A stretch of DNA of 64,000 bases from assembly GCF_000744285.1 (NCBI RefSeq), contig NZ_JQLQ01000002.1, positions 682,001-746,000 on the forward strand, read 5' to 3'. Numbering within the stretch: the stretch's first letter is position 1; every line of letters begins with the position of its first letter. A program made the position numbers and the translations under genes. The notes under the pieces were generated by a model that made no database searches, had not been told where the DNA came from, and saw nothing but the letters and a program-made list of their open reading frames with translations. This document shows positions 11,330 to 58,758 of this stretch, piece after piece. This DNA is from Carnobacterium pleistocenium FTR1. Lineage in GTDB: Bacteria; Bacillota; Bacilli; Lactobacillales; Carnobacteriaceae.

Positions 11330-11493
11330 TTTTTTAGTGTTGATTGGTTTAATCCAATTCCTTATCCATAATTTTTGAAGCTTGAATGCCGGAAAACTTC
11401 TTTTAGGCTTAAGACGGTCCATTGGCTCCACAAGTAAACCTGTCTATTCCAGAAAAAATTTATTATGAAGTATCAATACTGTCTGTCAACTAG
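11330..11493 (+). repeat. Dispersed structured repeat, copy A (internally deleted)
   Basis: Starts TTTTTAGTGTTGAT and ends ATCAATACTGTCTG, the two ends pairing with each other. It keeps the GAAGCTTGAA...TTTTAGGCTT second hairpin and the CACAAGTAAACC...ATTCCAG distal arm, but the proximal arm and first hairpin are missing. See the family description in the findings. Confidence 0.75.
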
Positions 11494-11531
11494 CCTTCAA
11501 TATGAAATAATTAATCCAATTAAACTTATTT

Positions 11532-12722
11532 TTAAAGTTTTTTCTCGTAGCCTTCCATTGGAGCAAATTGTCCTGAGTAATCATCGTTCACATTAGCTGA
11601 ATCTGTTGAGAAGTGCATAACAGAACTAAACGATTCAACTAGATAAACTTGCATTACAGGAGGGATAGCTAATTCATCCATATCCAGTAGGCTAATTTCT
11701 TTCCGGATACTACTTTCATCATTTGAAGCTACTTTTTGTACCCATTGAGGTTCACGAATCAATTCTCTTCCTAATGCAACCAAGTTAGCGCCATTCGCTA
11801 AAATGTCATCTGCATCTTTAGGATTTTCAGCTGAACCGACTCCGATTAAAGGAACATTATTTTCTGTTACTTTAACAAATTGGTTTAAGATCGGAGTGAT
11901 ATCAGTTTTATCATTTAATGATGTACGTTTATAACTTGCAATCGATAAATGAAGATAATCAATTTTTCCTTTAATTGCATCTGCAAAATAAAGAGAATCT
12001 GCTAAACGAATTCCAGGAGTTTCAATTTCTTCTGGAGACATTCTATAGCCTAAAATAAATGGGCGATCAGCGTATTGTTTAATAATATCAGCAGCGTGGT
12101 CAATAACTGCTAGAGGGAAAGTAAGTCTCTTGTCTCTTGATCCGCCCCATTTGTCTGTTCTTCTATTTGAATGTTCTGAGTAAAATTGTTGTAGAAGGTA
12201 GGTGTTAGCACCATGCAATTCAACGCCGTCAAAACCAGCGACTATTGCTCTACGTGTAGCTTCTCCGAAATCAACGATGATTTGTTCGATTTCATCATTC
12301 GTTAATTCTTTTGGCATTTCAGAATCTGTTGGGTAAGGAGCTGCAATAGCACTCGCACTTACAGGTTGATCGCCTTTTAATATCCTTGAGTAAGTTTTTC
12401 TACCAACATGGAAAATTTGCAGAACAGCTTTTGTGCCTTTTTGTTTAATGGCCGTAGCTAATTTTTCAAGACCTGGAATCATTGAGTCATCTGCAACAGA
12501 TAATTCACCTTCAAATCCCTTACCATTGTCGCTTACGTAAGCAACTCCAGTGATGATCATTCCGGGACCTCCAGCTCGCGCTCCATAGTAATTTATTTCA
12601 TCTGTAGTAATCATTCCGTTATGAAAGCTAGACATAGTTGTCATTGGCGCCATCACGATTTTGTTTTTTAATTTTTGTCCATTTTTAAATTCAAAACTAT
12701 CTAAAAAATCATATTTAGTCAT
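11532..12722 (-). CDS. NADH:flavin oxidoreductase (old yellow enzyme family)
   Basis: A 396-residue FMN-dependent TIM-barrel oxidoreductase. Motifs in order: KIVMAPMTT near residue 22, the HGANTYLLQQFYSEHSN stretch near 175 that carries family-typical FMN and substrate contacts, RTDKWGG near 195, and VALGREL near 325 for FMN phosphate. It has only the OYE barrel, not the Fe-S and reductase domains of 2,4-dienoyl-CoA reductase. Such enzymes reduce electrophilic alkenes and some quinones. It is divergent from an HxlR regulator with palindromes in the shared promoter, so it is likely induced by a reactive electrophile (inference). Confidence 0.9.
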   Translation of the reverse strand: MTKYDFLDSFEFKNGQKLKNKIVMAPMTTMSSFHNGMITTDEINYYGARAGGPGMIITGVAYVSDNGKGFEGELSVADDSMIPGLEKLATAIKQKGTKAVLQIFHVGRKTYSRILKGDQPVSASAIAAPYPTDSEMPKELTNDEIEQIIVDFGEATRRAIVAGFDGVELHGANTYLLQQFYSEHSNRRTDKWGGSRDKRLTFPLAVIDHAADIIKQYADRPFILGYRMSPEEIETPGIRLADSLYFADAIKGKIDYLHLSIASYKRTSLNDKTDITPILNQFVKVTENNVPLIGVGSAENPKDADDILANGANLVALGRELIREPQWVQKVASNDESSIRKEISLLDMDELAIPPVMQVYLVESFSSVMHFSTDSANVNDDYSGQFAPMEGYEKKL

Positions 12723-12817
12723 TAGTGTTCCTCCAACTAGTTATTTAAGAAGACGATGTCTTTAAATCATTTCTTATATATGTTAGTATACTTACTATAA
12801 ACGAAAAAGATAAGTAC

Positions 12818-12852
12818 GCACTTTAAAGTGCTATAGGTACTTAAAAGTGCCT
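12818..12852. promoter_or_regulatory. Operator-like palindromes between OYE gene and hxlR gene
   Basis: A perfect 14-base palindrome GCACTTTAAAGTGC (12818-12831) is followed 20 bases on by a related site, GTACTTAAAAGTGCC (12838-12852). The centre-to-centre distance is about two helical turns. This is where an HxlR dimer controlling both divergent genes would be expected to bind. Confidence 0.65.
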
Positions 12853-12878
12853 ATCAGAAAAATAAGGGGGAAAATAAG

Positions 12879-13253
12879 TTGGGAAAAATTTATAATCTTG
12901 GTGTGGAAGCTACACTTGAAGTGATTGGTGGAAAATGGAAACCCATTATCTTGTGCCAATTAGGTCATGGAGCGTTACGAACAGGAGAAATGAGAAGAAG
13001 AATTCCAGCAATTACACAAAAAATGTTGACGCAACAATTAAGAGAACTTGAAGAAGACAGCATTATAGCTAGAGAAGTGTTTAATCAAGTACCTCCTAAA
13101 GTTATTTATTCTTTAACAAAAGAGGGAAAGTCATTAAGAGAAGTTTTGATCGCCATGTCTGTTTGGGGAGAAGAACGAATCAATAATGATCAAAAAAATG
13201 GAAAAGATGTTCAGATTACCAGTCAGGACTATACTGGATTTGTTGAAATGTAA
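12879..13253 (+). CDS. HxlR-family winged-helix regulator
   Basis: A 124-residue MarR-like regulator of the HxlR/YodB type: VIGGKWKPIILCQL (helix 1) near residue 12, the recognition region ITQKMLTQQLRELEEDSI near 45-62, and the wing PPKVIYSLTKEG near 73. No cysteine is present in the N-terminal six-residue redox position used by YodB; the only obvious Cys is in LCQL. The start is a TTG preceded by AAGGGGGAA. Divergent from the flavin oxidoreductase it probably controls. Confidence 0.88.
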   Translation: MGKIYNLGVEATLEVIGGKWKPIILCQLGHGALRTGEMRRRIPAITQKMLTQQLRELEEDSIIAREVFNQVPPKVIYSLTKEGKSLREVLIAMSVWGEERINNDQKNGKDVQITSQDYTGFVEM

Positions 13254-13260
13254 ATGCACC

Positions 13261-13354
13261 TTATAATTTTTAATGGTGCTAGATTTAATCTAGGCAAACC
13301 GGTCCATTCCAGCAGAAATTTTATTTTGAATCACCCACACTGTTAGAACTAAAG
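13261..13354 (+). repeat. Dispersed structured repeat, copy B (short, deleted)
   Basis: Begins TTATAATTTTTAATGG and ends TCACCCACACTGTTAGAACT. Only the two ends and the GGTCCATTCCAGCAG distal arm remain; the centre with both hairpins is deleted. Lies directly after the HxlR gene. Confidence 0.65.
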
Positions 13355-13377
13355 GCTAAAAAACCAACAAAAAATAT

Positions 13378-13427
13378 AATGACCCCCAAATGTTAGATCA
13401 AAATCTAACGTTTGGGGGTCATTTTTT
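13378..13427. terminator. Bidirectional terminator
   Basis: Perfect GC-rich stem: ATGACCCCCAAA..TTAGAT pairs with ATCTAA..TTTGGGGGTCAT, followed by T6 on the plus strand and preceded by an A-rich stretch. It separates the HxlR gene from the converging lipoprotein gene. Confidence 0.92.
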
Positions 13428-13508
13428 ATGGCTAAATAGATAAAAGAATGTCGACTTGCTTTTTTCTCCCTATGAGTCATATGAATATAGCAAATAAACA
13501 AGTAAGAA

Positions 13509-13964
13509 TTAGTTGTTTTCTTGAAGAACTACTTTTACTTTTTCAATCACTTCTTGATCATTTTTTTCATAAATAAATTCGATAAATAAATTTTCTTCAA
13601 AATCAATATTCTTAGTGGGTATAATAAAGCCAACCAGGTCGCCTTCTAATAGAGTTGTACGCGTATCAAGAATTCCTTCTTGATTTGCACCAGTGCTGAC
13701 TGAGTAAAAAAGAGTATTATTTTTATCATAAAAATTCATATTAGCTTGTTGAACTAAATCTTCAATATCGCTGTCTGTGTGTTCAATAGCGAATAATTGA
13801 TAGGTTGGTTGAATATATAATTCGTCCTCATTTGATACAATTACTAAGTTTTCGAGAGCAACATCTTTTGTTCTAGCGTCGATTGAAAATGTATGTAATG
13901 TATTAGTTGCCGTACAGGCACTCAAAAATATAAAACTCATCAAAACTAAGATAAACTTTTTCAT
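13509..13964 (-). CDS. Small lipoprotein, possible DUF4352-like fold
   Basis: A 151-residue exported lipoprotein: a basic N-terminus, a hydrophobic stretch and the lipobox LSAC at residues 14-17, so it should be anchored to the outer face of the membrane. The mature part is beta-rich and acidic; 'EGDLVGFIIPTKNIDFEENLFIE' resembles the strand pattern of immunoglobulin-like DUF4352 or telomeric-repeat-like lipoproteins, but this is only a visual impression. It has a good AAGGAG site and no co-directional neighbour, so no function can be inferred. Confidence 0.8.
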   Translation of the reverse strand: MKKFILVLMSFIFLSACTATNTLHTFSIDARTKDVALENLVIVSNEDELYIQPTYQLFAIEHTDSDIEDLVQQANMNFYDKNNTLFYSVSTGANQEGILDTRTTLLEGDLVGFIIPTKNIDFEENLFIEFIYEKNDQEVIEKVKVVLQENN

Positions 13965-14019
13965 TTTTTAACTCCTTATAGAAAAAAATTCGTATTTTTT
14001 TTCAACACCAAGAATAGGT

Positions 14020-14270
14020 TTATAATTTTTAGTACGAATAGATTTAATCCATGCACTCATCCTAAATTTCTGGCGGAATAGGGTGGCTTGTAACCATGTT
14101 AAGTATTCAATGAGAATTACACAACGTTGGCGCTTTAGCGATTACGCTGTGTTTGAAGCTTGAAAGCTGGAAGACTTCTTTTAGGCTTCAAGCGGTGCCA
14201 TGGTTTCACAAGCAAACCCGTCCATTCCAGCAGAAATCTTATTTTGAATCATCCACATCGTTTGAACTAG
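14020..14270 (+). repeat. Dispersed structured repeat, copy C (full length)
   Basis: Reference full-length copy, about 250 bp. Parts in order: TATAATTTTTAGT end; proximal arm CTGGCGGAATAG..CTTGTAACCATG; hairpin 1 (ACACAACG...TTTA...CGCTGTGT); hairpin 2 starting TTGAAGCTTGAAAGC; distal arm CATGGTTTCACAAGC..CCATTCCAG pairing with the proximal arm; end ATCCACATCGTTTGAAC. It fills the gap between ndk and the lipoprotein gene. Confidence 0.85.
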
Positions 14271-14280
14271 AACTTGAAAT

Positions 14281-14325
14281 GTTCTAGAAGAAATTTTATT
14301 TTAAAAATCAACACTATTTGCCACA
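14281..14325 (+). repeat. Second 3'-end fragment of the dispersed repeat
   Basis: GTTCTAGAAGAAATTTTATT followed by ATCAACACTATTTGCC repeats the 3' end of the repeat family immediately after copy C, as if two copies had recombined or one had been truncated at its 5' side. Confidence 0.55.
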
Positions 14326-14331
14326 TAACTT

Positions 14332-14370
14332 AAAAATACCTACCAAGCTAATTTTGGTAGGTATTTTTAA
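14332..14370. terminator. Terminator of ndk (bidirectional)
   Basis: Arms AAAAATACCTACCAA and TTGGTAGGTATTTTT flank a short loop (GCTAATT) just beyond the minus-strand ndk stop codon. Confidence 0.88.
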
Positions 14371-14383
14371 TGGAGATTAACTT

Positions 14384-14785
14384 TTAGTTAAACCAAATGG
14401 AACGTTCTCTGATTGCACTTTCTAGTGAATCAGAAGCGTGAACAGTATTTTCAGCCATGCTAAGACCATACAAGGCACGAATCGTATTGTCTTGGGAATC
14501 TTCAGGATCTGTAGTCCCATTCAATGTTCGAACGCGACTGACTACATCTTCACCTTCTAAAACAAGAGCAACTAATGGACTTCTTGTAAGATAAGTAACT
14601 AATCGGTTAAAGAAAGGTTTTCCATTATGTTCTGCATAATGTTGTTCTGCCATTTCTGTAGAAGCATTGATTAATTTCAGTTCAATAACTTTCAAACCAT
14701 TTCTTTCGTATTCAACTAAAATACTTCCAATTAAGTTTCGTTCTACCGCATCTGGCTTAATCAATACAAGTGTTTTTTCTGTCAT
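14384..14785 (-). CDS. ndk: Nucleoside diphosphate kinase
   Basis: A 133-residue cytoplasmic enzyme that transfers the gamma phosphate from ATP to nucleoside diphosphates. The N-terminus TLVLIKPDAVERN, the RNGLKVIELKL strand and the active-site NTVHASDS (phosphohistidine His116) are all present. The NGTTDPEDSQDNTIRALYG loop deviates from the classical NPADAAPGTIRGDF but keeps the TIR arginine. It has normal family length, an AGGAGG site before the ATG and its own terminator. Confidence 0.93.
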   Translation of the reverse strand: MTEKTLVLIKPDAVERNLIGSILVEYERNGLKVIELKLINASTEMAEQHYAEHNGKPFFNRLVTYLTRSPLVALVLEGEDVVSRVRTLNGTTDPEDSQDNTIRALYGLSMAENTVHASDSLESAIRERSIWFN

Positions 14786-14901
14786 TGCTAATCATCCTCC
14801 TAGAAATACCCTTAATAAGAGTTTAACATGTTCTGTTTCTTTAGGGTAGAAAGAAGAGAACACTTAATGAAATGAAACTAAAAGCGCTAAGGATTTTTTG
14901 A

Positions 14902-15588
14902 CTATTCTAAATAATATTTTTTAGTCACCATCAATTCTTCATTTAATTCATAAACAAGTGGCTGACCAGTCGGAATATCGATAGCCATGATTTCTTCATC
15001 CGATAGTTCTTCTAGGTATTTGATCAATGCCCGAATCGAATTCCCATGTGCAGCAATCAATACAGTTTTATTATCTAGAATTGCTGGTGCAATATGATCT
15101 TCCCAAAAAGGTATCACTCGTTCTAAAGTTACTTTTAGACTTTCACCCATTGGGATGGTCCTTTTTTGAAGATTGGCATAACGACGATCATTCAACGCAG
15201 AATTTAAATCGTTTGGTTTTAATAGTGGTGGCAAAGTGTCATACGAACGACGCCAGATTTGAACTTGTTCGGGCCCAAATTCTTCAATAGTCGCTTGTTT
15301 ATTCAACCCTTGCAAGGCTCCATAATGACGTTCATTTAAGCGCCAAGATTTGGTTTCCGGAACCCATAATTGATCTGATTCTTCTAAAATAATATGGCAA
15401 GTCTTGATGGCTCTTTTTAAGACAGATGTAAAAGCGAAATCAAAATTAATTCCGGCATTTTTAATTTTTTGTCCAGCTTTATGTGCTTCGTCATACCCTT
15501 GTTCACTTAAATCAGCATCCATCCACCCGGTAAATTGATTTAATTTATTCCATTCGCTTAAACCATGTCGCACAAAAATTAATTTCAA
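14902..15588 (-). CDS. gpmA: 2,3-bisphosphoglycerate-dependent phosphoglycerate mutase
   Basis: A 228-residue glycolytic enzyme interconverting 3- and 2-phosphoglycerate. The histidine phosphatase signature VRHGLSEWN carries the phospho-His (His8), [13 protein letters not shown] lies near residue 80 and [15 protein letters not shown] holds the second catalytic His near 180. An in-frame TTG at 15621 would add 11 residues, but AAGGTGG is correctly placed for the TTG at 15588, which gives the family-typical MKLIFVRHG start and the typical 228-230 residue length. Confidence 0.92.
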
Positions 15589-15785
15589 TTCATCCACCAC
15601 CTTTTTTGTAATCGAACGCAAGCTTTACCATAATTTTACTCTTGTTTTTTGTAAAAGCTATTAATAAGATACCTCTTGGAAAATAAAAGATGAAGTGTCG
15701 AGGTTTGAAAATAGACGCTTTTTTTTTATTGAGCTATACTGAATATAAGTGGCTATTCGCTAGAAAAGATATTTGGAGGGATTAG

Positions 15786-16571
<786 letters not shown>

Positions 16572-16620
16572 GAAAAAACACTTAGAAATAAGGTGTTTAT
16601 AAAAATGAATCAACTTTATT

Positions 16621-16647
16621 CGGAGTAGGTTATCTACTCCGTTTTTT
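16621..16647 (+). terminator. Terminator of the SDR gene
   Basis: Stem CGGAGTAG/CTACTCCG with a five-base loop, followed by TTTTTTG. Confidence 0.9.
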
Positions 16648-16808
16648 GTTTTCATACAATGAAATCGGATACTCGAATCAATTTAAGAGAATTTTCTCAT
16701 TTAAAAGCAACAAAAATAGACGGCAATTTTTCGGTAGGATATACTAGTTAAGAAACGAACTCGTATAACAATGAGTACGATGCATTAAATGAAAGGTAAG
16801 ATAAAAAA

Positions 16809-17828
16809 ATGAAGACTATTACCATATTGATCCCTGCTTATAATGAAGAAGACGTAATTGACAAAATGTACGAAAAATTAGATAGCGTCTGTGGAGGTTT
16901 ATCTCAGTATGCGTTTGAATTTCTATTTGTGAATGATGGAAGTACAGATAGAACCCTTGAACAGATAAAAGCTTTTAAACAAAATGATCCACGTGTGCAG
17001 TATGTGGATTTATCTCGTAATTTTGGAAAAGAGCCAGCAATGTTAGCTGGATTTGATTATGCTAAGGGCGATGCATTGATTATTATAGATGCCGATCTGC
17101 AGCAACCGCCAGAAATATTTTCTGAAATGATCCATTGGTGGGAAGAAGGTTACGATGATGTCTATGCTGTTCGCAAAGAACGCGAAGGGGAAACATGGTT
17201 AAAGAAATGGACCTCTGACATGTATTACAGAGTATTACAAAAAGTTGCTAAAGTAAAAGTTTACCCTCAAGCAGGTGATTTTAGATTATTGGATAAAAAA
17301 TGTGTGACAGCCTTAACTCAACTTAGAGAACATGAGCGTTACACAAAAGGAATGTATGGCTGGATAGGTTTTAAAAAGAAAGAGATTGCTTATATAGCTG
17401 AAGCTAGGGCTGGTGGAGAAACCAAATGGAATATCTCAGATTTGATGAATTTAGCATTAAATGGTATCACCTCTTATAGCACGATACCTTTAAAGATTTG
17501 GTCAATTATTGGCATCAGCATCTCAATATTTTCTTTTATCTATCTGGCTGTTGAAATTATTCGAACAACATTATTTGGAACAAATGTGGACGGATACCCT
17601 TCTTTAATTGCCGGTATTTTATTTTTAGGTGGCATCCAACTCATTTCACTTGGCATTATTGGCGAGTATTTGGGTCGCGTGTTTATCGAAACAAAGGAAC
17701 GACCAGTTTACTTCATTCAAGAATATTCAGAAGGAAAAACTGAAAAAGACGAAGTAACTCCTCGTGAACGAAAAGAAGAAGAGAAAGAGATGGATGTAAG
17801 AAATGACAAAGATAAAAGAGCTCATTAG
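16809..17828 (+). CDS. Polyprenyl-phosphate glycosyltransferase (GT2, CsbB/GtrB type)
   Basis: A 339-residue inner-membrane enzyme. A cytoplasmic GT2 domain (residues 1-220) has ILIPAYNEE, the VNDGSTDRT metal/nucleotide loop and IIDADLQQPPE with the DxD. Two transmembrane helices follow (about 232-255 and 265-290), then a charged tail rich in K, E and R. Relatives load a sugar from a UDP donor onto undecaprenyl phosphate. It overlaps the GtrA gene by 26 bases and is followed by YfhO, forming the three-component system known to glycosylate teichoic acids in Bacillus and Listeria. The sugar is unknown. The hydrophilic tail of about 45 residues is longer than usual. Confidence 0.9.
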   Translation: MKTITILIPAYNEEDVIDKMYEKLDSVCGGLSQYAFEFLFVNDGSTDRTLEQIKAFKQNDPRVQYVDLSRNFGKEPAMLAGFDYAKGDALIIIDADLQQPPEIFSEMIHWWEEGYDDVYAVRKEREGETWLKKWTSDMYYRVLQKVAKVKVYPQAGDFRLLDKKCVTALTQLREHERYTKGMYGWIGFKKKEIAYIAEARAGGETKWNISDLMNLALNGITSYSTIPLKIWSIIGISISIFSFIYLAVEIIRTTLFGTNVDGYPSLIAGILFLGGIQLISLGIIGEYLGRVFIETKERPVYFIQEYSEGKTEKDEVTPRERKEEEKEMDVRNDKDKRAH

Positions 17829-18219
17829 TAAATACGATGAGGTAATTGGGTATTTGATTTTTGGCGGTTTAACAACCGTTGTAAATATTATTGTTTTTTA
17901 TTTATTTGATTCTATTCTTGGGGTGCATTACTTAGTTGCAAATGCGCTGGCTATTATTGTTTCAATTTTATTTGCTTTTTTTACTAATAAAAAATATGTA
18001 TTTAAATCATCAACCCCGACTTTTCAATTGTGGCTGAAAGAATTTAGTTTGTTTGTCTCTTTTCGTTTACTATCAGCTGTCTTTGACATGGGAAGTATGT
18101 GGCTGTTAGTTGATGGATTGGATTTTGATGCAAACTGGGCAAAAATCATCACACAATTTATTGTCGTGGTACTGAATTATGCATTCAGTAAATTCTTTAT
18201 TTTTAAACAAGGAGAGTGA
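17803..18219 (+). CDS. GtrA-family membrane protein (probable lipid-linked sugar flippase)
   Basis: A 138-residue protein with four predicted membrane helices (about 12-32, 38-58, 80-100, 108-130) and the GtrA signatures YLIFGGLTTVVNI near the N-terminus and FFTNKKYVFKS in the middle. GtrA proteins are proposed to flip undecaprenyl-phosphate sugars across the membrane. It overlaps the GT2 gene in front and the YfhO gene behind, the arrangement expected for coupled synthesis of one system. Confidence 0.9.
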   Translation: MTKIKELISKYDEVIGYLIFGGLTTVVNIIVFYLFDSILGVHYLVANALAIIVSILFAFFTNKKYVFKSSTPTFQLWLKEFSLFVSFRLLSAVFDMGSMWLLVDGLDFDANWAKIITQFIVVVLNYAFSKFFIFKQGE

Positions 18220-18224
18220 ATCAG

Positions 18225-20975: not shown

Positions 20976-20994
20976 AAGAGACTGAAAAAGGGCT

Positions 20995-21155
20995 CTATAA
21001 TTTTTAGTGTCGATAAATTTAAGTTAACTACTTTTCTGAAAGTTCTGGAGGAATAGAGTTGCTTGTAGCCATGTGCAAGATCCAATGAGAATTACAAAAC
21101 GTTGGCGCTTCAGCGATTACGTTATATTTGAAGGGAGTGTGACTAAAAGCGTCAC
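20995..21155 (+). repeat. Dispersed structured repeat, copy D (5' half of the long form)
   Basis: From TATAATTTTTAGTGTCGATAA through the proximal arm GGAGGAATAGAGTTGCTTG, hairpin 1 (CGTTGGCGCTTCAGCG) and then GAGTGTGACTAAAAGCGT, a sequence otherwise found only in the long copy at 37.3 kb. The 3' half is absent. Confidence 0.75.
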
Positions 21156-34754: not shown

Positions 34755-35120
34755 AACAATCCCTCCTAATGACGTATCTCTTATTTCCTAATTATACTAT
34801 CAATCAAAAATAAAATAAAAAAAAGTGACTCAAGATCCTTTGTTTTCACTAATACGATATTGATAAGGTAGCTTCACAAAAATTACGCGTAACCCCATTT
34901 TTCATGACTGCTGTAATGAGTAAGAGAGTACTTGTATAAAAAGAGAGCGTTTAACAATTAAAAACAAATAAGAGAATATACAGCTAAATTACTCGATAAT
35001 GCTAGATATATCTGCTTTCTCAATAGAAAACACGAACTATCTAACGAATAAATTGTTGTAATATCATTTTTTTGTTGTTTTTCAGAAAAATATCTTTTAT
35101 AATAAACTAGCAATGTTTAG

Positions 35121-35190
35121 AACCGAATATAATTAAGCGATATGGGCTTTAAGTTTCTACCGGACACCGTAAATGTTCAGACTATTGGTT
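35121..35190 (+). promoter_or_regulatory. Purine riboswitch, guanine class
   Basis: The conserved aptamer parts are present in order: P1 AACCGA pairing with TTGGTT, AGCGATATGGGCTT (P2 and loop), AAGTTTCTACC, GGACACCGTAAATGTTC (P3) and GACTAT. The specificity base before P1 is C (GACTAT), as in guanine/hypoxanthine-binding xpt-type aptamers; adenine types carry U. It lies 183 bases upstream of a purine permease. A TAAATAAAC/GTTTATTTA hairpin follows at 35191-35218; without a T-run its role as expression platform is unclear. The stretch 34755-35120 shows nothing else I can support. Confidence 0.92.
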
Positions 35191-35372
35191 TTAAATAAAC
35201 TTGTTTTTGGTTTATTTAGAGATACATTAGAAGCATTTAGAATAACTGTGATTTTTTATATTGATTTTTTTGCAATCATAGCTCAATAAGCAGTTAGGTA
35301 GAAAAACTGAAACTCGATTGATTTAAGTATAACGGTTCACTTTGTAATATAAAAAAGTGGGGAACTAATAAA

Positions 35373-36965: not shown

Positions 36966-37439
36966 AAAGACTACGAGTCAAATGATGTGGCTGCTTCAAG
37001 ATAAAATTTTTCTGGAATGTACGGGTTTGCTTGTGGAAAGCCATGGGAACGTCTGTAAGTGTCATTCTAAAACGTGTTCCAAGCAGACCCAACGTGCACT
37101 TTGTCATGACTGTAGTTGCTTCAGCTACGTACAGGCATGATACACTTAGGCGTAGCCTACATGCTTTCGCAAGGTGGTCGGTGACCATCCTGCGCTTATT
37201 CGTTCCAGTTGCCCTAGCTCTTGTGGCTTTAGCCACATTAGAGATAAGGTATGAGTTAGAAGATTTCGGGTCTGAACGCTTTTAGTCACACTCTCTTCAA
37301 ACAAATCGTAATCGCGCTAAAGCGCAAACGTTTTGTAATTCTTATTGAATCCAGTTCACGGCTACAAGCAACCCCTATTCCTCCAGTAATTTTGGAACGA
37401 GTTATTTAATTCATTTATTTAGCCATACCAGAAATTATA
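36966..37439 (-). repeat. Dispersed structured repeat, copy E (long form, about 470 bp)
   Basis: Read on the minus strand it starts TATAATTTCTGG, has the proximal arm CTGGAGGAATAGGGG, hairpin 1 (ACAAAACG...CGATTTGT), then a region of about 230 bases replacing the usual short hairpin 2, and ends with CATGGC..CACAAGC..CATTCCAG and AGCCACATCATTTGAC. The inserted arm begins GAGTGTGACTAAAAGCGTTC and ends GAACACGTTTTAGAATGACA, which are roughly complementary, with many small hairpins between (for example GTGGCTAAAGCCAC). It occupies the whole gap between the pbuG-like gene and the next gene. Confidence 0.85.
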
Positions 37440-37540
37440 CAGCCTATTCTTTATGATTTAGAAAATACTTCTCAAGTTGGATTGCAAAATTTGAAACTTC
37501 TTGTACAATAAATAAAATGAACGGAAAGTAGGGAATAGAA

Positions 37541-46834: not shown

Positions 46835-48472
<1,638 letters not shown>

Positions 48473-50845: not shown

Positions 50846-50864
50846 TAATAGATTCTACCAAACC

Positions 50865-50893: not shown

Positions 50894-50911
50894 AATAGTT
50901 GTTGTTAATAA

Positions 50912-50995: not shown

Positions 50996-51018
50996 TAATA
51001 CATTCATATCAATGGTTA

Positions 51019-51067
51019 CAGCTATTTTCTTTGCTCTTTTGAGCATGAGGAAAATGGCTGTTTTTTT
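51019..51067 (+). terminator. Terminator of tRNA-Leu
   Basis: ACAGCTATTTTC...GAGCATGAGGAAAATGGCTGT forms a long stem with an inner GCTC/GAGC pair and runs into T7. Confidence 0.85.
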
Positions 51068-51308
51068 GCAAGTGGGCTGGCGTGAGAGGTTGGTGTATTT
51101 CCCAATTTTAGCAAAAAGATAAGTTTTAAAAATCTATCTCAATTTAAAAAATACGTAACTTGAAAGTTTTAATTTAGCTATTTTAAAAGATGTTATATTG
51201 CGTGCTTATACGTTCTTTTAAAGCATGTTTTAAAAAAGAAGGGAATGTAAATATTTTGTCAAGAAGAAAAAAACGTTAGACAAGGATAATCAGAATGAAC
51301 TTTATAAT

Positions 51309-52160: not shown

Positions 52161-52360
52161 AAAAACAATCAGCAAAAACAAAAGATTTATCCAAACTATT
52201 TATATAGTTCCTTTACTAAAAAAATAATTTCAAAAAAGTAGACCAATTAGAAATAACATATATATTTTATTTGCATATTCTTGCAAAATAAGATTGTAAT
52301 CGATTTAAATAACGTCTATAATCATTTAGAAAGCGTACATAAAAAATTGGGGGTAATTTT

Positions 52361-53584
52361 TTGAAAAAGACGGTTAAAGGTTTATTGGTATCAACAGCAT
52401 TATTAGGGTTAATAGCTGGAACAACAGTTTTACCACTATCAAATAACATATTAGGAATTCAAGAAGTACATGCAGCAAACGCTCAAAAAGGTTCTGTTAA
52501 CGTTACAATGGACTTATCACAAGCATCTAAAGACCTTTATCGAGGTCAAGATAATGCTAAAGTAAGTAAAACATCAGATGGTTCAGGTACAGTTTATGCT
52601 TACTACCAATCAGATATGAATGAACTAACTATTGTTATAGCATTTGCCGCACCAGATGGTTCACTTGCTGAAACTTCAATATTCGTTACTGAGTCAGGAA
52701 CATACCAACTTACAGATGTTGATGCAAACGGAAGTTATTACACAGTAAATATTACTCTTACACCAGACACAACTGAGGAAGAAATTCCTGTAGAAGAAGA
52801 AACTCCTGTTGAGGAAGAAACACCAGTAGAAGAAGAAACACCAGTAGAAGAAGAAGACCCAGAATGGGAAGAAGAAATCCCTGAAGAAGAAATCCCTGAA
52901 GAAGAAGTGCCTGTAGAAGAAGAAACACCAGTAGAAGAAGAAACACCAGTAGAAGAAGAAACACCAGTAGAAGAAGAAACACCAGTAGAAGAAGAAGCTC
53001 CTGTAGAAGAAGATGACTCTGAAACACCAGTAGTAGATGACCCAGAATGGGAAGAAGATACAACAGAAGAAACTGAAACACCAGTAGAAGAAGATACAGA
53101 GGAAGAAACTGAAACTCCTGAATCAGCAAATCGTTTAGCTGTAAATGGTATTTACACAGTAGTATTGGACGACACATTATCCGAAATTGCTGAAGACTTT
53201 GATGTAACAGTTGCTAACTTAATGGCCTGGAACAACTTAAGCTCAGAACAATTGACTAATGGGCAAAATTTAGTTGTAGTTGCAACTGAAACTTCAGAAG
53301 AAGCTGCAAACGTAGAAGAAGTAACTGCAATTGAAACTTCAGAAGAAGCTACAAACGTAGAAGAAGCAACTGCAACTGAAGCTTCAAAAGAAGCTACAGC
53401 CGTTGAAGAAGCAACTGCAACTGAAACTTCAAAAGAAGCTATAGACGTTGATAAAAATAACAAACCGACAAAACTATTACAAACAGATATTTCAACCCTT
53501 AGCACTTTAGGTACAGCAGGAGTTGGAGCATCTACAGTGTTAGCAGGTATCTATTCTTTCCTTTCACGTAAAAAGAAAAAATAA
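52361..53584 (+). CDS. LysM-containing surface protein with atypical C-terminal anchor
   Basis: A 407-residue exported protein. Signal peptide at residues 1-38 (cleavage after VHA), a beta-rich domain at about 40-140, an acidic proline repeat region at about 143-255 built from TPVEEE-type units, a LysM domain at about 258-306 (YTVVLDDTLSEIAEDF...LMAWNNL), four 16-residue TSEEA/VEEA repeats, and a C-terminal hydrophobic helix followed by RKKKK. Where LPxTG is expected, the sequence is LLQTD. TTG start with GGGGGT upstream. The sortase gene next door is probably its processing enzyme. It lies in the decayed integrated region. Confidence 0.88.
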   Translation: MKKTVKGLLVSTALLGLIAGTTVLPLSNNILGIQEVHAANAQKGSVNVTMDLSQASKDLYRGQDNAKVSKTSDGSGTVYAYYQSDMNELTIVIAFAAPDGSLAETSIFVTESGTYQLTDVDANGSYYTVNITLTPDTTEEEIPVEEETPVEEETPVEEETPVEEEDPEWEEEIPEEEIPEEEVPVEEETPVEEETPVEEETPVEEETPVEEEAPVEEDDSETPVVDDPEWEEDTTEETETPVEEDTEEETETPESANRLAVNGIYTVVLDDTLSEIAEDFDVTVANLMAWNNLSSEQLTNGQNLVVVATETSEEAANVEEVTAIETSEEATNVEEATATEASKEATAVEEATATETSKEAIDVDKNNKPTKLLQTDISTLSTLGTAGVGASTVLAGIYSFLSRKKKK

Positions 53585-53621
53585 GCTATAAAATACATTA
53601 AATTAACCTAATTTGATGCTA

Positions 53622-53661
53622 AAATGAAAAAGGAGTATCTTTAAAGATATTCCTTTTCATT
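53622..53661 (+). terminator. Hairpin between the surface protein and sortase genes
   Basis: AATGAAAAAGGA(G)TATCTTT pairs with AAAGATA(T)TCCTTTTCATT. Only a short T/C-mixed tail follows, so it may be a partial terminator that keeps sortase expression below that of its substrate. Confidence 0.55.
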
Positions 53662-53683
53662 TACTTAAAAAGGGGTTAAACCT

Positions 53684-54370
53684 ATGAGAAATCAACATAA
53701 ACAATTGAAAATATTTAGAAGAAGAAAACTGAAACAAAGAATTGCTATGGTTGTCTTCATTTTAGGTCTTTTAGTTTTAGCATATGAACCTTTAATGAAT
53801 TTATATATAGAGTATTCTGTTGAAAAAACACTTGTAGAAGAGGTTAAACCATTAAATGAGGTTATTGCACAAGATTTAGAACAAACAGACTTAAATAAGC
53901 CAGTAGATACCTACTACGATATGGATAGCCGTCAAATTGTTATTGGTAAATTAGCTATACCATCTGTCAGTTTAAAACTTTCAATTATTAAAGGTGTAGG
54001 TCAAGAAAATGGTGACCCTATGGAAAAAGGTGCTGCTACTAATAAAGAGGGTCAAGAAATGGGTTTACGAAATTATGTTTTATCAAGTCATGCTATGAAA
54101 GACCCAACATTATTATTTTCACCACTATTTAACGTTGATTATGATGATAAAATGTATGTTACAGATGAAGAAAATGTGTATGTTTATAATGTAACAGCAA
54201 TAGAAACTGTTGAACCAGAAAGAGTAGATATTTTAGATGATGTTGATGGTCGTCAAATGATTACCCTATATACATGTACACAAGCCGGTAGCAAACGTAT
54301 TGTTATAACAGGAGATTTAGTAGAAACTTCAGAGTATATCGAAAAAACTGCAACTTATTTTAATAACTAA
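53684..54370 (+). CDS. Class A-like sortase
   Basis: A 228-residue type II membrane protein: basic N-terminus (LKIFRRRKLKQR), one helix at about 20-40, and an extracellular sortase barrel from about 80. The catalytic residues are His136 in SSHAMKD, Cys198 in ITLYTCT and Arg205 in SKRIVITG. IGKLAIPSVSLKLSI near 88 marks the usual first strand of class A/D enzymes. It follows the LysM surface protein by 99 bases with AAGGGG before its ATG. The neighbour's LLQTD motif suggests either altered specificity or action on other LPxTG proteins. Confidence 0.9.
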   Translation: MRNQHKQLKIFRRRKLKQRIAMVVFILGLLVLAYEPLMNLYIEYSVEKTLVEEVKPLNEVIAQDLEQTDLNKPVDTYYDMDSRQIVIGKLAIPSVSLKLSIIKGVGQENGDPMEKGAATNKEGQEMGLRNYVLSSHAMKDPTLLFSPLFNVDYDDKMYVTDEENVYVYNVTAIETVEPERVDILDDVDGRQMITLYTCTQAGSKRIVITGDLVETSEYIEKTATYFNN

Positions 54371-54392
54371 TGCAAAATAGTATAGTAAGGCT

Positions 54393-54427
54393 TAATCCAG
54401 GTGACTAATAGTCTGGATTATTTTAGA
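54393..54427 (+). terminator. Probable terminator of the sortase gene
   Basis: TAATCCAG/CTGGATTA with a 12-base loop, followed by TTTTAGATCTTT. Confidence 0.6.
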
Positions 54428-54650
54428 TCTTTATAATTTTAAATAATTTATAATTTTATCTGATTTCAATTATTGAAGGCTGTTTTAAAAGTTTCTCATT
54501 TCAAGAAATATTATTTTTTTAACAGTATCCTTTTTACCATAGCTCCAGATGCTCTAGCTATAATGATGGCAACTAAAGTACCAACAAATTGAATTTTTCT
54601 TGAAGAATTAATTATTCTACGTTGTACATTTTTAATAATATTTTCAATTT

Positions 54651-54695
54651 AAAAGAAGTCTGGCTTAGAGTTCACTCATAAGCCTAACTTCTTTT
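54651..54695. terminator. Bidirectional terminator-like hairpin
   Basis: AAAAGAAGTCTGGCTTA pairs with TAAGCCTAACTTCTTTT (one mismatch) around an 11-base loop. It separates the sortase island from the following repeat. Confidence 0.75.
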
Positions 54696-54704
54696 CTATC
54701 AATA

Positions 54705-54942
54705 TTTTTTTACTTTTGGTAAGTTAGTTAAGCAAGTTACATAAAATTTCTGGAGGGATAGGGGTGCTTGTAACCGTGCCAAGGATTCAATGAGAATTAC
54801 AGAGCGTTAACGCTTCAGCGATTATGCTCTGTTTGAAGCTTGAAAGACTTAAGACAATAGGCTTAAGTCGGTACCACGGTTTTTACAAGCTAGCCCGTTT
54901 ATCCCAGAAGAAATTTCTTTGAAGCACTACTACTATTCATCA
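54705..54942 (+). repeat. Dispersed structured repeat, copy F (full length)
   Basis: Proximal arm CTGGAGGGATAGGGGTGCTT with GTAACCGTG pairs with CACGGTTTTTAC..CGTTTATCCCAG. Relative to copy C the arm has changed GAAT to GGAT and the partner ATTC to ATCC; likewise ACCATG/CATGGT became ACCGTG/CACGGT. Hairpin 1 is ACAGAGC...GCTCTGT and hairpin 2 GACTTAAG...CTTAAGTC. The 5' terminal sequence has drifted. Confidence 0.82.
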
Positions 54943-54973
54943 AAAAATTTTTTTGGAATTTTAATGTAGAAAA

Positions 54974-55897
54974 TCAATTCATTGAGAAGGCAAATTCAGC
55001 GATTCCTATCATTAAAGGCATACTGATGATAGAAAGCAATGTCGATAACACAACTAAGCGAGCACCGTATTCGTAGTCTCCACCATAAAGTTGTGAAAAC
55101 AAAGCTGTATTTACAGCGATTGGAGCAGCAGTTGTAATGATTAAGACAAAAAAGACTAAGTAATTATCTAAAGGCAATAGCCATAGTAGAGCAATGCTGA
55201 CAAGTGGAGATAAAATCAAAGATATAAAGATAGTCCAGTAAGCTCGAGGATGATTAAAAAGATCGATTAATTTAGACTCTGCTACATAACTACCTAGTAA
55301 AATCATGGCTAGTGGTGTATTTAAATCAGCAATTGTGTAAAGTGAATCACTGAAAAGAGTCGGTAGCTGTATGCGCAGTAAATAAAAAATCAATCCAATA
55401 AGAGCTCCTAGAGATGCCGGGTTTAATAAGGCATTCTTAGGAGTAATCATAGCTTTATCCCCTGAAATGATGTAAATGCCATAAGTTCGTTGTAGGATAT
55501 TTGTTACAGTAATATAAGCAGCTACAAAAAAAACACCTTCGTAACCAAGGACTGCTAAAACTAACGGAATCCCAATAAATCCTGCATTTGTAAAGGTTGT
55601 GGCATAACGATCTGTTCGAGAGGCATTGTGCAAGAAAAAATAGTTCACTAAAATGCGAACCGCCAACAATAAAATTGAAATTCCAATTGTTGCAAGAAAC
55701 CATTTGAATTGATTGGAATCAAAAACTTGTTGGAAAGACATAAATAAAAGCACAGGGGTGATGAAATTTGCTAACATTTTAGCAATCTGCTTGGTACCAG
55801 AAGCATTTAAAACATTATTTTTAACAAGTATGTATCCGAAAAGTATGAGGATGAACATACTGCTTAACTGTTGCAAAATGATTGTACTGATATTCAT
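54974..55897 (-). CDS. AEC-family (auxin efflux carrier-like) transporter
   Basis: A 307-residue membrane protein with about ten helices. LMSFQQVF near 55 and a glycine-rich stretch FTNAGFIGIPLVLAVLGYEG near 105-124 (typical of AEC proteins), plus the second-repeat helices to the end. Lactobacillales members include malate permeases and transporters of unknown organic acids. I chose the ATG at 55897 since AGGAAGG is 9 bases upstream; the ATG at 55906 touches the ribosome site. It is monocistronic. Confidence 0.88.
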   Translation of the reverse strand: MNISTIILQQLSSMFILILFGYILVKNNVLNASGTKQIAKMLANFITPVLLFMSFQQVFDSNQFKWFLATIGISILLLAVRILVNYFFLHNASRTDRYATTFTNAGFIGIPLVLAVLGYEGVFFVAAYITVTNILQRTYGIYIISGDKAMITPKNALLNPASLGALIGLIFYLLRIQLPTLFSDSLYTIADLNTPLAMILLGSYVAESKLIDLFNHPRAYWTIFISLILSPLVSIALLWLLPLDNYLVFFVLIITTAAPIAVNTALFSQLYGGDYEYGARLVVLSTLLSIISMPLMIGIAEFAFSMN

Positions 55898-56103
55898 CTT
55901 GTTCATCCTTCCTTATAAAAGTAGACTATAAGAAGTATAGCTTAAATCAAGTGAGTACTGCAAAAAAATATTTCTACTCTTAAATGATAAGCTAGTGACA
56001 AATAGATCATTTAATGCTAATTTAAAGAAACCAAATAATTATGGTTAAGCAAATGGAAAACAATTAAATGCTTTATTGAGCAATTTAATAAGAGGAGAAA
56101 AAT

Positions 56104-56640
56104 ATGAAACAGGTTAATGTAAAAGAAAGTCTGAATGTTGAAAAGGTTCGTATTGAATTAGCTACCAAAGAAGATATTGATCAAATCATTGCTATTTGTA
56201 CCGAAGGATATGCTTATGCAGCAGCAATTGTAAAAGATAAGGAAAAAGTGCAAGAAAAGGTTGAAGAGTATTATCATCCTGAAAGAATCTTAAAAGAAAT
56301 TGAAGAGGTATCTGCTAAATGGAGCGGATGGATCGTTGCTCGATTAGATGAACGAATTATTGGCGTAATCGGTGGAGGCACCGTTGATTCAAAAGTAGGT
56401 AAAATTTTCGTTTTATATGTTGATTCCAATTACTTAAGAAAAGGGATTGGAAAACGTTTAGTTGATCACTTAACACAAATGCAGCAGTTATTAGGAAATA
56501 ACACTCAATTGGTCAGCTTCTTGAAATCGAATAAAGAGGATCTTTTGTTTTATGAAGCCCTTGGATTTAAAACTATTCACGATATCGTCGATAATGAAAA
56601 CTCGGATTTTACAAGTATTGAAATGATCCGCGACATCTAA
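56104..56640 (+). CDS. GNAT-family N-acetyltransferase
   Basis: A 178-residue protein with the GNAT fold from about residue 15: RIELATKEDIDQIIAICTEG at the N-terminus, IFVLYVDSNYLRKGIGKRLV (acetyl-CoA loop) near 100-119, and LFYEALGFKTI near 150. The acceptor is unknown. It begins with an extra 15 residues before the fold. AGAGGAG precedes the ATG. The VOC protein gene starts 18 bases after its stop, so the two are co-transcribed. Confidence 0.88.
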   Translation: MKQVNVKESLNVEKVRIELATKEDIDQIIAICTEGYAYAAAIVKDKEKVQEKVEEYYHPERILKEIEEVSAKWSGWIVARLDERIIGVIGGGTVDSKVGKIFVLYVDSNYLRKGIGKRLVDHLTQMQQLLGNNTQLVSFLKSNKEDLLFYEALGFKTIHDIVDNENSDFTSIEMIRDI

Positions 56641-56658
56641 ACTAATTGGGGGAAAAGT

Positions 56659-57042
56659 ATGTTAAACATAAAAAAAATTCATCATGTTGCAATTATTGCA
56701 TCTGACTATCAAAAATCAAAAGAATTTTACACTGAAATTTTAGGTTTAGAAATCGTACGCGAAAACTATCGATCAGAACGAGATTCCTACAAACTGGATT
56801 TAAAATTGGGAGAGAGTGAAATTGAATTATTTTCTTTCCCAAATCCAACAAAACGACCTACACAACCTGAAGCAGCAGGGCTAAGACACTTGTGTTTTTA
56901 TGTGGAGGATTTTGATGAAGCCATTCAGCTATTGAATCAAAAAGGAATTGAAACTGAGCCAGTGCGCATAGACGAATACACAGGTGGAAAATTCACCTTT
57001 TTTACAGATCCTGATGATTTGCCGTTAGAAATACATGAATGA
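56659..57042 (+). CDS. VOC-family (GloA2-like) protein
   Basis: A 127-residue vicinal-oxygen-chelate fold: KKIHHVAIIASDYQKSKEFY at the N-terminus with the first metal His, Glu in ESEIELFSF near 53, His in GLRHLCFYVEDF near 77 and Glu in PLEIHE at the end. The arrangement matches the SMU1112c/YwkD-type subgroup often annotated gloA2. It may act on glyoxal-derived or other electrophilic substrates. It lies between a GNAT gene and a second VOC gene. Confidence 0.87.
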   Translation: MLNIKKIHHVAIIASDYQKSKEFYTEILGLEIVRENYRSERDSYKLDLKLGESEIELFSFPNPTKRPTQPEAAGLRHLCFYVEDFDEAIQLLNQKGIETEPVRIDEYTGGKFTFFTDPDDLPLEIHE

Positions 57043-57118
57043 TTAACCTTTGAAGTCTAAATAGAATTGTATTAGAATAGAGAAGTATGAAGTGATGAAA
57101 TGAAAGGATGATTGAAAC

Positions 57119-57499
57119 ATGGCAAAAAAAATGTTGCATACTTGTGTTCGAGTGAAAGATTTAGAAAAATCAATGGAATTTTATACAACGATACTAGGTT
57201 TTAAAGAAGCTCGTCGTTTAGACTTTCCGGAGTTTAAATTCACCCTAGTTTATCTTGCTTTAGATAATGACGACTACGAATTAGAATTAACATATAATTA
57301 TGATCAAGAAGAAGCCTATACACTTGGTAATGGTTATGGTCATGTTGCTATTGGTGTAGATGATTTAAATGCAACTCAAAAAGAGTATAAAGCTAGTGGC
57401 TATGAAGTTACAGATGTAAAAGTTCTTCCAAATGGTGCAGCTACTTATTTTTTTGTAACTGATCCAGATGGTTATAAAATCGAAGTTATTCAAAATTAA
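57119..57499 (+). CDS. gloA: Lactoylglutathione lyase (glyoxalase I)
   Basis: A 126-residue VOC-fold enzyme that isomerises the hemithioacetal of methylglyoxal and glutathione. All four metal ligands are in expected places: His8 (LHTCVRVKDLEKS), Glu in DYELELTYN near 55, His in GYGHVAIGVDD near 76, and Glu in YKIEVIQN at the C-terminus. With the glutathione reductase at 32.9 kb this fits a glutathione-based detoxification route. It has its own GAAAGGATG region and a strong terminator follows. Confidence 0.9.
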   Translation: MAKKMLHTCVRVKDLEKSMEFYTTILGFKEARRLDFPEFKFTLVYLALDNDDYELELTYNYDQEEAYTLGNGYGHVAIGVDDLNATQKEYKASGYEVTDVKVLPNGAATYFFVTDPDGYKIEVIQN

Positions 57500-57517
57500 G
57501 ATAACTTTTTTACTTTA

Positions 57518-57562
57518 GGTTTTAGGCGGTACATGGTTTCTTGAAAATCCGGCCAGTCTTAA
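57518..57562 (+). repeat. Possible fragment of the dispersed repeat
   Basis: TTTTAGGCGGTACATGGTTT followed by CTTG resembles the TTTTAGGC...GGTGCCATGGTTTCACAAG portion of copy C, with an internal deletion. Too short to be sure. Confidence 0.35.
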
Positions 57563-57600
57563 ATAAATTGCATGCAGTTAGTCTGGTAACACCAAAAACT

Positions 57601-57656
57601 TTAGATTAAAAAACGGTTTTCAGACAATATTGTCTAAAAACCGTTTTTTAATCTAT
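57601..57656. terminator. Bidirectional terminator after gloA
   Basis: Very long stem: TTAGATTAAAAAACGGTTTT and AGACAATATTGTCT inside, closed by AAAACCGTTTTTTAATCTA. The two converging genes end against it. Confidence 0.93.
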
Positions 57657-57665
57657 TTTTTACTT

Positions 57666-58085
57666 TTATTCTTTTAAACCAAAGCGTTCAATTAGATTGT
57701 ATAGATTTTCTTTATGCCAAGGTAAATCAGCGACTTCTTTAGGTACTTTGTATTTTTTAAGACGGTCATCGTCAGCGGTAGCATTTTTGTATTGGATCAT
57801 TAAGGAATAATGATTAAGTTGTTTTTTGAAATAAATTGATTTAACTTCTAGTAACGGGACTTGAGCATAGTCACCTTCGACAAGGGCTAGAGAATCTTGG
57901 ACAATTGGCAAAATAACGAATTCTCTTTCAGCAAAATTTAAGTAGATCTTTTCAGTTTCGTTTTTTCCAAACAATGTAGCATACCATTTTCGATTACGTG
58001 TTTTTCTTTCAACTAAAATAGTAGCGCCTGTTTTTGCTTCTAATCCATGGCGATCTAAATAATTTACAATAACTTCCTCTTTCAT
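57666..58085 (-). CDS. Uncharacterised PH-like/YcxB-style cytoplasmic protein
   Basis: A 139-residue soluble protein, beta-rich in the first 110 residues (ATILVERKTRNRKWYATLFG, EREFVILPIVQD) with a final helix (KENLYNLIERFG). The pattern of strands plus a C-terminal helix resembles a PH-like domain, but I cannot name a family. AGGAGG stands before the ATG. It converges on gloA. The next 760 bases upstream hold a separate structured RNA candidate and a repeat. Confidence 0.72.
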   Translation of the reverse strand: MKEEVIVNYLDRHGLEAKTGATILVERKTRNRKWYATLFGKNETEKIYLNFAEREFVILPIVQDSLALVEGDYAQVPLLEVKSIYFKKQLNHYSLMIQYKNATADDDRLKKYKVPKEVADLPWHKENLYNLIERFGLKE

Positions 58086-58243
58086 AAAAAGGCCTCCTTA
58101 AAATAAAGTCTTGCCTAATATAGAGAAGAAACTCCTCTATTGAATCAACCCCATTATAGAACAGCTAAATAGTTAGTACCAATGATAAGCATGGAAAATA
58201 AAAAATGGTTTATGCATAATGACAAAAAAGAAAAGGAATCTTC

Positions 58244-58281
58244 TTGTGTTTAACGAATATACATGTTAAAGTATATACATG
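58244..58281 (+). promoter_or_regulatory. Promoter region with direct repeats for the RNA candidate
   Basis: Possible -35 TTGTGT (58244) or TTAACG (58250) with -10 TAAAGT (58267) or TATACA (58274). The nine-base sequence ATATACATG occurs twice (58257-58265 and 58273-58281), 16 bases apart, which looks like a regulator site over the promoter. Confidence 0.5.
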
Positions 58282-58282
58282 C

Positions 58283-58486
58283 GATGAGTTGACCTCCAAC
58301 CAGGTGACTTCGGTCATTTCGCTGCGGCGACAAGTGGTTGGAACTTTAGACAAGACACGACTGTACTTAGGTACGACTGCAAGATGCAGGTGTTTGGACC
58401 CCTCTGTTTTGTGGAATTCATGGGACCTATTTATGTAAATAAATATTGTCGGAAAAAACACTGATTTTATCAGTGTTTTTTTTTTA
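58283..58486 (+). ncRNA. Unidentified structured RNA candidate, about 200 nt
   Basis: No credible ORF. Stem CCAACCA/TGGTTGG (58296-58302 with 58335-58341) encloses two hairpins, TGAC-TTCG-GTCA and TCGC-TGCG-GCGA. A second stem CAAGACAC/GTGTTTGG (58351-58358 with 58390-58397) encloses GTAC-TTAG-GTAC and CTGCA-AGA-TGCAG. Both are three-way junctions capped by stable loops. A single-stranded region follows, and then a strong terminator (AAAAAACACTGA/TCAGTGTTTTTT). The unit lies alone between genes and I cannot match it to 6S, SRP, RNase P, tmRNA, T-box or a riboswitch that I know. Confidence 0.6.
58453..58486 (+). terminator. Terminator of the RNA candidate
   Basis: AACACTGA/TCAGTGTT stem with TTTTA loop, followed by T9. 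Confidence 0.9.
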
Positions 58487-58507
58487 CAAAAAAATAAATA
58501 AAAGGGC

Positions 58508-58758
58508 TATATAATTTTTAGTGTGGATAAATAAATGAGTTAAATGACTCACCCAAAATTTTTGGAGGAATAGAGTTACTTGTAGCTATACACAGGATTC
58601 AATGAGAATTATAAACCGTTAACGCTTCAGCGTTTACAGTTTATTTGAAGCTTGAAAGTCGGTAAGTCTAAAGGCTTACCGACTTTCAAGCTTCACAAGC
58701 AAACACGCCTATTCCAGAAGGGATTTTATTTTAAAGCATCCACACTATTTGACTTAGA
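58508..58758 (+). repeat. Dispersed structured repeat, copy G (full length)
   Basis: The best-folded copy. Ends TAGTGTGGAT and ATCCACACTA pair perfectly; hairpin 1 is ATAAACCGTTAACGC-TTCA-GCGTTTACAGTTTAT; hairpin 2 has a perfect 20-base stem (GAAGCTTGAAAGTCGGTAAG with CTTACCGACTTTCAAGCTTC); the outer arms GGAATAGAGTTACTTGTA and CACAAGCAAACACGCCTATTCC also pair. It lies between the RNA candidate and the phosphodiesterase gene. Confidence 0.88.

Follow-up and report, generated by a model that had tools for sequence, protein, structure and literature searches.

The stretch of Carnobacterium pleistocenium FTR1 analysed here (the window, 64,000 nucleotides of contig NZ_JQLQ01000002.1, positions 682,001 to 746,000) contains copies of a short repeat whose inner part, a core of about 150 nt, has a fold that is conserved across the order Lactobacillales. 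In the host genome these repeats are miniature inverted-repeat transposable elements (MITEs) with ends of the kind found in ISL3-family insertion sequences. The element is probably best explained as a mobile structured RNA, carried by ISL3-type ends in this host and with a core that is not tied to that vehicle.

Searched with a covariance model of the repeat (R1, built from 41 family copies, with window copies F and G among its rows), the host genome of 2.66 Mb yielded at least 85 matches at E ≤ 0.01, and BLAST with window copy C gave at least 41 there, copy C itself counted; both numbers are lower bounds, since 150 of 1064 and 40 of 133 candidates, respectively, were scored. Full-length copies measured about 254-268 bp, many of the weaker R1 matches being short or cut. 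No open reading frame (ORF) recurred across the element in 30 host-genome loci.

Fold of the core and its conservation

The core consists of a stem, P1, and two arms (P4 plus P2, and P3), with conserved junction strands between them. The 40-pair structure was set by hand from conserved anchors, after RNAalifold had returned a weak fold on alignment A1 (−5.75 kcal/mol, 25 pairs). P4 is a five-pair stem linking GATNCAA to TTGN'A, and its N-N' pair was T-A in 29, G-C in nine and A-T in two of 41 copies. Copies from other genera presented wholly changed P2 and P3 sequences with the pairing retained (for P2, ACTTAGCG/CGCTGAGT and ACGAAGCG/CGCTTCGT; for P3, GCGTGGAG/CTCCACGC and GTTTTGAG/CTCAAAAC). 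The compensatory arms quoted in the original prediction, which had been made from the letters of the window, are present in the sequence. That prediction also held that the fold and not the sequence is conserved, which was not supported for the junction strands: GAATTA, TTTGA and others were at least 90% conserved over 105 copies, and such runs are long.

Covariation was evaluated on alignment A2, comprising 41 of 68 extracted cores, all from the host's family (f1), and on the order-wide alignment A3, with 105 matches in 100 loci chosen from 291 loci. Paired cells amounted to 93.6% in A2 (86.0% when shuffled) and to 94.7% in A3 (70.6% when shuffled); the covariation score of A3 was 0.601 vs. 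0.164 after shuffling, and double changes occurred in 38 of its 40 pairs vs. 30.7. Under a tree-aware null, for which a FastTree phylogeny served to redistribute the substitutions much as R-scape does, 20 of the 40 pairs on A3 exceeded all 205,920 null scores, whereas none of the 40 passed on A2. The proposed selection on a cloverleaf-like fold, and the covariation expected of it in a larger alignment, were thus supported at the level of the order but not within the host's family alone. Two pairs outside the model also beat the null on A3 (G-C 52, A-T 19, C-G 12 and T-A 7 of 105 copies, Watson-Crick in 90 of 105, for the first; T-A 45, C-G 29 and A-A 23 of 105, Watson-Crick in 74 of 105, for the second), and these are likely additional junction contacts. 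Because A3 had been fitted to the model, a structure-free realignment was made, in which 13 pairs were significant; 11 of them lie in the fold and the remaining two were the same extra pairs of residues (agreement in 103 of 104 rows for one and in 102 of 102 for the other).

None of the families of Rfam 15 matched the element at the gathering score, either in the window or in 15 loci from other genomes, in agreement with the earlier statement that no described family fits; at E ≤ 10, copies C and E and locus L104 gave weak matches alone, far below gathering scores. The covariance-model search of Lactobacillales that had been suggested, run with strict filters and with at most seven candidates scored per genome, detected the core in 40 of the 395 genomes sampled, which belong to 21 of 80 genera. 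A sample of the whole class gave four positive genomes among 398, the host and three others of the same order. The spread across the order is very patchy: Enterococcus rivorum displayed 36 R1 matches in contrast with none in 21 other genomes of its genus, and family f3 was not found among the 40 genomes with an R1 match. Pattern scans gave matches in Carnobacterium jeotgali, two Desemzia, Pisciglobus halotolerans, E. rivorum, E. aquimarinus, Candidatus Tetragenococcus, the record Streptococcus sp. 263_SSPC and a record called C. maltaromaticum. In the record C. maltaromaticum 757_CMAL, copy L235 by eye equals the f4-type copy L192, and the record may be misnamed or mixed. Distant blastn searches of plasmid and phage records with copy E, and of plasmid records with a Desemzia copy, gave no match, nor did a pattern scan of IMG/VR.

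Transposon ends of the host repeats

Aligned copies were bounded by terminal inverted repeats (TIRs) of about 24 bp (GGCTGTATAATTTTTRGTGTGGAT / GGCTCTAGGTCAAATRGTGTGGAT). At fixed boundaries, exact 8-bp flanking duplications were present in seven of 32 copies, vs. a mean of 0.25 and a maximum of three when ends were re-paired among copies in 2,000 trials; flanks identical at seven or more of the eight positions occurred in 11 of 32 copies (mean 0.59 and maximum four after re-pairing), and at six or more in 17 of 32 (2.16 and seven). The insertion at L014 was absent from all four aligned congeners, the flanks meeting within two bases in one of them (G001), so that this is an empty site; in a fifth congener (G004), left out of the alignment, the flanks lie about 126 bases apart. 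Congener G001 also carries an ISL3 element (L061) of 1,500 bp with an exact 8-bp duplication, whose ends show one and two mismatches to the MITE end strings used. Our element thus resembles ISL3-family insertion sequences in its terminal repeats and 8-bp duplications and differs from them in having no transposase, and its homology with L061 is confined to the outer 25-33 bp. Matches to the transposase domain PF01610 were found in 21 of the 39 genomes searched, with 18 in G001, and both TIRs and 8-bp duplications were present in eight of 20 ISL3 loci examined.

The host repeats, being short, non-coding and multi-copy, with TIRs, a target-site duplication and ends matching those of an autonomous relative in a congener, are MITEs with ISL3-type ends. 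The empty site and the patchy spread point to transposition, which an ISL3-family transposase would carry out in trans. The outer pairs of the TGTGGAT/ATCCACA type had been taken as evidence for the fold; since they belong to TIRs that match ISL3, they are transposon ends. Transposon ends, an explanation of the pairing that had been considered at the outset, thus account for the outer pairs but leave the inner pairs unexplained.

Tandem pairs of elements, about 240-270 bp apart, were common (L310, L311, L312, L314, L315 and L318 in G001; L019 in the host genome). Both flanks of the tandem pair L311/L019 are common to the two species, and by eye its copies are most like their neighbour, not their counterpart. 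At L317 and L158 one intergenic place holds the element in opposite orientation in two species.

Vehicles, strand and placement

ISL3-like ends were scored with a matrix of 14 ISL3 ends at a threshold of 1% of the null. Among 16 copies of family f1, 10 had such ends on both sides and five on one side. Of 27 copies outside this family, nine of them from E. rivorum, 23 had none, three had one (L196, L199 and L287) and a single copy had both (L180, from genome G213, family f4). Other settings of the core differed as well: in genome G103 (L199/L277) it lies between the stop codon of an ISL3 transposase and the right inverted repeat, seven scored copies of that genome being near-equal in R1 score; in 263_SSPC some copies are within terminator-like stem-loops (L201, L202 and L232); and copies in E. 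rivorum and in families f2 and f4 showed, by eye, conserved outer parts and no clear inverted ends. A more far-reaching reading, although an unlikely one, is that the core itself constitutes an RNA-centred mobile element, which would have changed vehicles among ISL3-type MITEs, the 3' region of an ISL3 element and forms without ISL3-like ends; its folded RNA would secure its own spread, either through recruitment of several kinds of transposase or through RNA-based insertion into terminator hairpins.

Changes from Watson-Crick to G-U pairs outnumbered those from Watson-Crick to A-C both on A2 (48:24; P = 0.006) and on A3 (98:44; P = 7e-6; 23:4 on internal and 76:39 on terminal branches). A cruciform of two strands predicts equality, and the excess of G-U therefore indicates that one strand probably folds. 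Folding of the core as one strand is moderately supported in this way, and the earlier alternative of RNA or cruciform leans toward a single folded strand, strongly on the model-fitted alignment and modestly on the structure-free one. On the internal branches of that alignment G-U exceeded A-C by 26-27 to 8-11. Terminal branches of the host-genome copies gave 26:21, together with 20 other breaks. This suggests that the structure is maintained as lineages spread but erodes in individual copies, and for this reason selection is placed on the spread of the element and not on each host locus.

Copies had a marked position with respect to genes, as judged from ORFs called mechanically. In 27 of the 30 best host-genome copies (of at least 85; two of the 30 form a tandem pair) the 3'-side gene converges on the element, and in 18 of these 30 the 5'-side gene lies on the strand of a converging gene. 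Among copies with a called 3' gene elsewhere, convergence was found in nine of 12 in E. rivorum, 13 of 15 in 263_SSPC, seven of eight in C. jeotgali, 12 of 13 in Desemzia, three of three in Pisciglobus and 20 of 22 in a set with one copy per genome of the order; in some of these an ORF call overlaps the element, and the sets have a few members in common. Five of 31 loci of G001 share both flanks with a host locus (L306/L009, L311/L019, L312/L342, L316/L340 and L317/L158); L306/L009 and L316/L340 are apparently simple orthologues, and five pairs are too few for a selection test.

The strongly oriented position of copies next to the 3' ends of genes would also be expected if each copy were a regulatory RNA serving the host by acting on the neighbouring gene, for example by extending its terminator or stabilising its mRNA. 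Precedents exist in the excerpted text of two papers, where BOX modules alter the expression of neighbours (PMC3049150) and a correlation is described between bcr3 and the rate of mRNA decay (PMC3446304). This alternative is nevertheless improbable: by a simple hairpin scan several host-genome copies sit past, not inside, the terminator of the converging gene, in the locus pair L340/L316 no more than one of the two copies keeps nine of the 40 base pairs intact, and G-U and A-C changes are near parity on the terminal branches of the host genome.

Slightly lower in probability is a plain MITE, a selfish derivative of ISL3 with a palindromic body that folds incidentally and with covariation that reflects the shared ancestry of subfamilies. 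The TIRs, the target-site duplications, the empty site and the decay of single copies are as this account would have them, as are the failure of all pairs to beat the tree-aware null in the host's family and the ISL3-like ends on both sides of L180. It is at odds with the 20 pairs that beat the null across the order and the 11 of 13 structure-free pairs falling in the fold, with junction strands conserved across families, and with the large majority of copies outside f1 that lack an ISL3-like end. Selection on folded single-stranded DNA, the element moving or being recognised as a hairpin of the kind known from attC sites and IS200/IS605-type ends, would fit the one-strand asymmetry, which cannot separate RNA from single-stranded DNA, and the copies in terminator-like stem-loops of 263_SSPC, but it is the least probable of the alternatives, and a very unlikely one, given that in Carnobacterium the ends act like those used by a transposase, with duplications of 8 bp, and that no partner recombinase was recognised beside copies.

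In the explanation that we favour, a mobile structured RNA borne by ISL3-type ends in this host, an ISL3-family transposase would recognise the MITE ends in trans, and the core carried inside would fold as one strand and be transcribed in the sense direction. The fold may serve the spread of the element, for example by protein binding, rather than each host locus. It is found across the order and not with this vehicle alone: outside the host's family most copies lack ISL3-like ends, and in one case the core lies within an ISL3 element. Copies may mostly adjoin a converging gene at its 3' end because outward transcription would be least harmful there.

Several results weigh against this explanation. 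On the structure-free alignment the total of G-U vs. A-C changes fell to 83-84 vs. 57-58 (P about 0.035), which weakens the strand argument, and terminal branches were near parity (56-57 to 47-49); the P-values of the strand tests treat events as independent, and the signal could also come from single-stranded DNA, so it does not indicate RNA as such. In folding energy the antisense strand did as well as the sense strand (z −5.0 vs. −3.9), and around copy G no promoter- or terminator-like site was seen, nor a consensus promoter. The lack of tree-aware covariation within the host's own family counts on the same side. Searches with PF01610 found no ISL3 transposase in the host genome, and therefore nothing was seen there that could move the element now. 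The core was absent from all 20 ISL3 loci of the PF01610 search, L277 having been chosen for its core, and in genomes G012 and G013 the core is, by eye, reversed between its ends, so co-transcription from the promoter end of the transposase is not general. Among 703 ORFs in 87 loci there was no clear recurrent partner protein beside the copies (the largest ORF cluster had 23 ORFs in 10 groups, and smaller ones spanned at most five groups). L180 has ISL3-like ends outside the host's family too, and our confidence was slightly lowered because of it.

Window copies, related repeats and significance

All seven places at which copies had been predicted in the window hold members of the family, although they are not of one kind: C, F and G are full, and A, B, D and E are partial or chimeric (Table 1). 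R1 ranked them in the order F, C, G, D, E, A.

Table 1. Coordinates of the repeat copies and their parts in the window.
Feature	Position	Strand	Details
Copy C, full MITE from TIR to TIR	14016..14274	+	bounds L001:1527-1785; R1 148.8 bits
Copy C, structured core (P1, J1/2, P4+P2 arm, J2/3, P3 arm, J3/1)	14071..14219	+	R1 match 1-148
Copy C, conserved junction strand J1/2, ending ATTCAATGAGAATTA	14100..14119	+	conserved columns
Copy C, P2 hairpin (ACACA...TGTGT)	14119..14152	+	covarying helices 4 and 5
Copy C, P3 hairpin	14166..14193	+	covarying helix 6
Copy F, full, decayed ends	54696..54949	+	core 54751-54896, R1 148.8 bits; flank agreement 3/8
Copy G, full, P3 arm swapped for a longer palindrome	58505..58761	+	R1 122.1 bits
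Copy D, truncated; left end through P2, followed by the start of module M	20991..21152	+	R1 58.5 bits
Copy E, MITE with module M replacing the inner arm	36969..37444	-	R1 54.9 bits, left part
Copy A, internal deletion (left-end remnant, P3, right half)	11330..11497	+	R1 22.6 bits at 11304-11441
Copy B, left end joined to right end, core lost	13261..13355	+	
Module M inside copy E, separate repeat family	37062..37296	-	22 host-genome matches at E ≤ 0.1; standalone copies in other genomes

Copy G has lost the conserved strand that follows P3, and its flanks (AATAAAAG/AATAAAAT) agree at seven of eight positions. The Rfam small RNA Ref68 (Lacto-3) lies directly upstream of it, at window positions 58280-58419. 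Elsewhere in the window, Rfam marks a purine riboswitch at 35104-35204, and an ORF of 407 amino acids contains coding repeats in tandem, 18 and 45 bp long, at 52755-53455.

Copies D and E share a 40-nt match (90%). Copy E is a chimera of the MITE and a second repeat, module M, which replaces the inner arm there and in at least four other host-genome places (L032, L033, L034 and L036). Module M is an intergenic repeat of about 236 nt (L074, L075, L076, L084, L086 and L095), with a relative from another family in L182. Its standalone copies begin near GGGAGTGRGAC, and after several of them comes a hairpin resembling a terminator. The subdomains of module M occur independently of one another, and one small hairpin changes in a compensatory manner.

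Excerpts of PMC3049150 describe BOX, RUP and SPRITE of Streptococcus pneumoniae as modular repeats with many short intergenic copies and strong secondary structures, the TIRs of BOX and RUP resembling those of ISSpn2 and IS630, respectively; SPRITE is enriched where convergent genes have their 3' ends, and transcription is described for some BOX copies. These repeats, present in pneumococcus, are rare among the other streptococci, although S. suis has related types. Among the repeats bcr1-bcr18 of the Bacillus cereus group, excerpts of PMC3446304 describe bcr1-3 as MITE-like intergenic repeats and bcr10 and bcr18 as having a conserved structure, predicted to be functional RNA, with about half of bcr copies transcribed. 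On these descriptions alone, our core is set apart from BOX, RUP and SPRITE by its 21 genera, covarying stems and fixed junctions, and from bcr, described for the B. cereus group, in that its four genomes in the class-wide sample are all from this order. BOX, SPRITE and bcr share its life-style, and none is described in those excerpts as spanning genera with such covariation.

EFAR elements are modular, of 42-650 bp, and are inserted into stem-loops, remains of the target stem being left at their ends. The copies L201, L202 and L232 resemble EFAR in this placement. EFAR is named as a MITE of Enterococci in an excerpt of PMC3733652; as the identity of our element it was not supported by R1, which had no match in 21 of the 22 genomes of the E. 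rivorum genus. The element was named nowhere in the titles and abstract openings of the openly licensed PMC literature searched, and a word search of the available text of a review of prokaryotic MITEs (PMC10969869) gave no mention of ISL3, Carnobacterium or Enterococcus.

If the favoured explanation is true, Lactobacillales hold a large and patchy family of mobile elements built around an RNA-like fold that is absent from Rfam 15, and R1 annotates scores of intergenic regions in some of their genomes. Larger mobile elements are helped in their spread by bridge RNAs and omega RNAs, and with the family described here one could ask, on a concrete example, if small transposable elements too are aided in their spread by structured RNAs.

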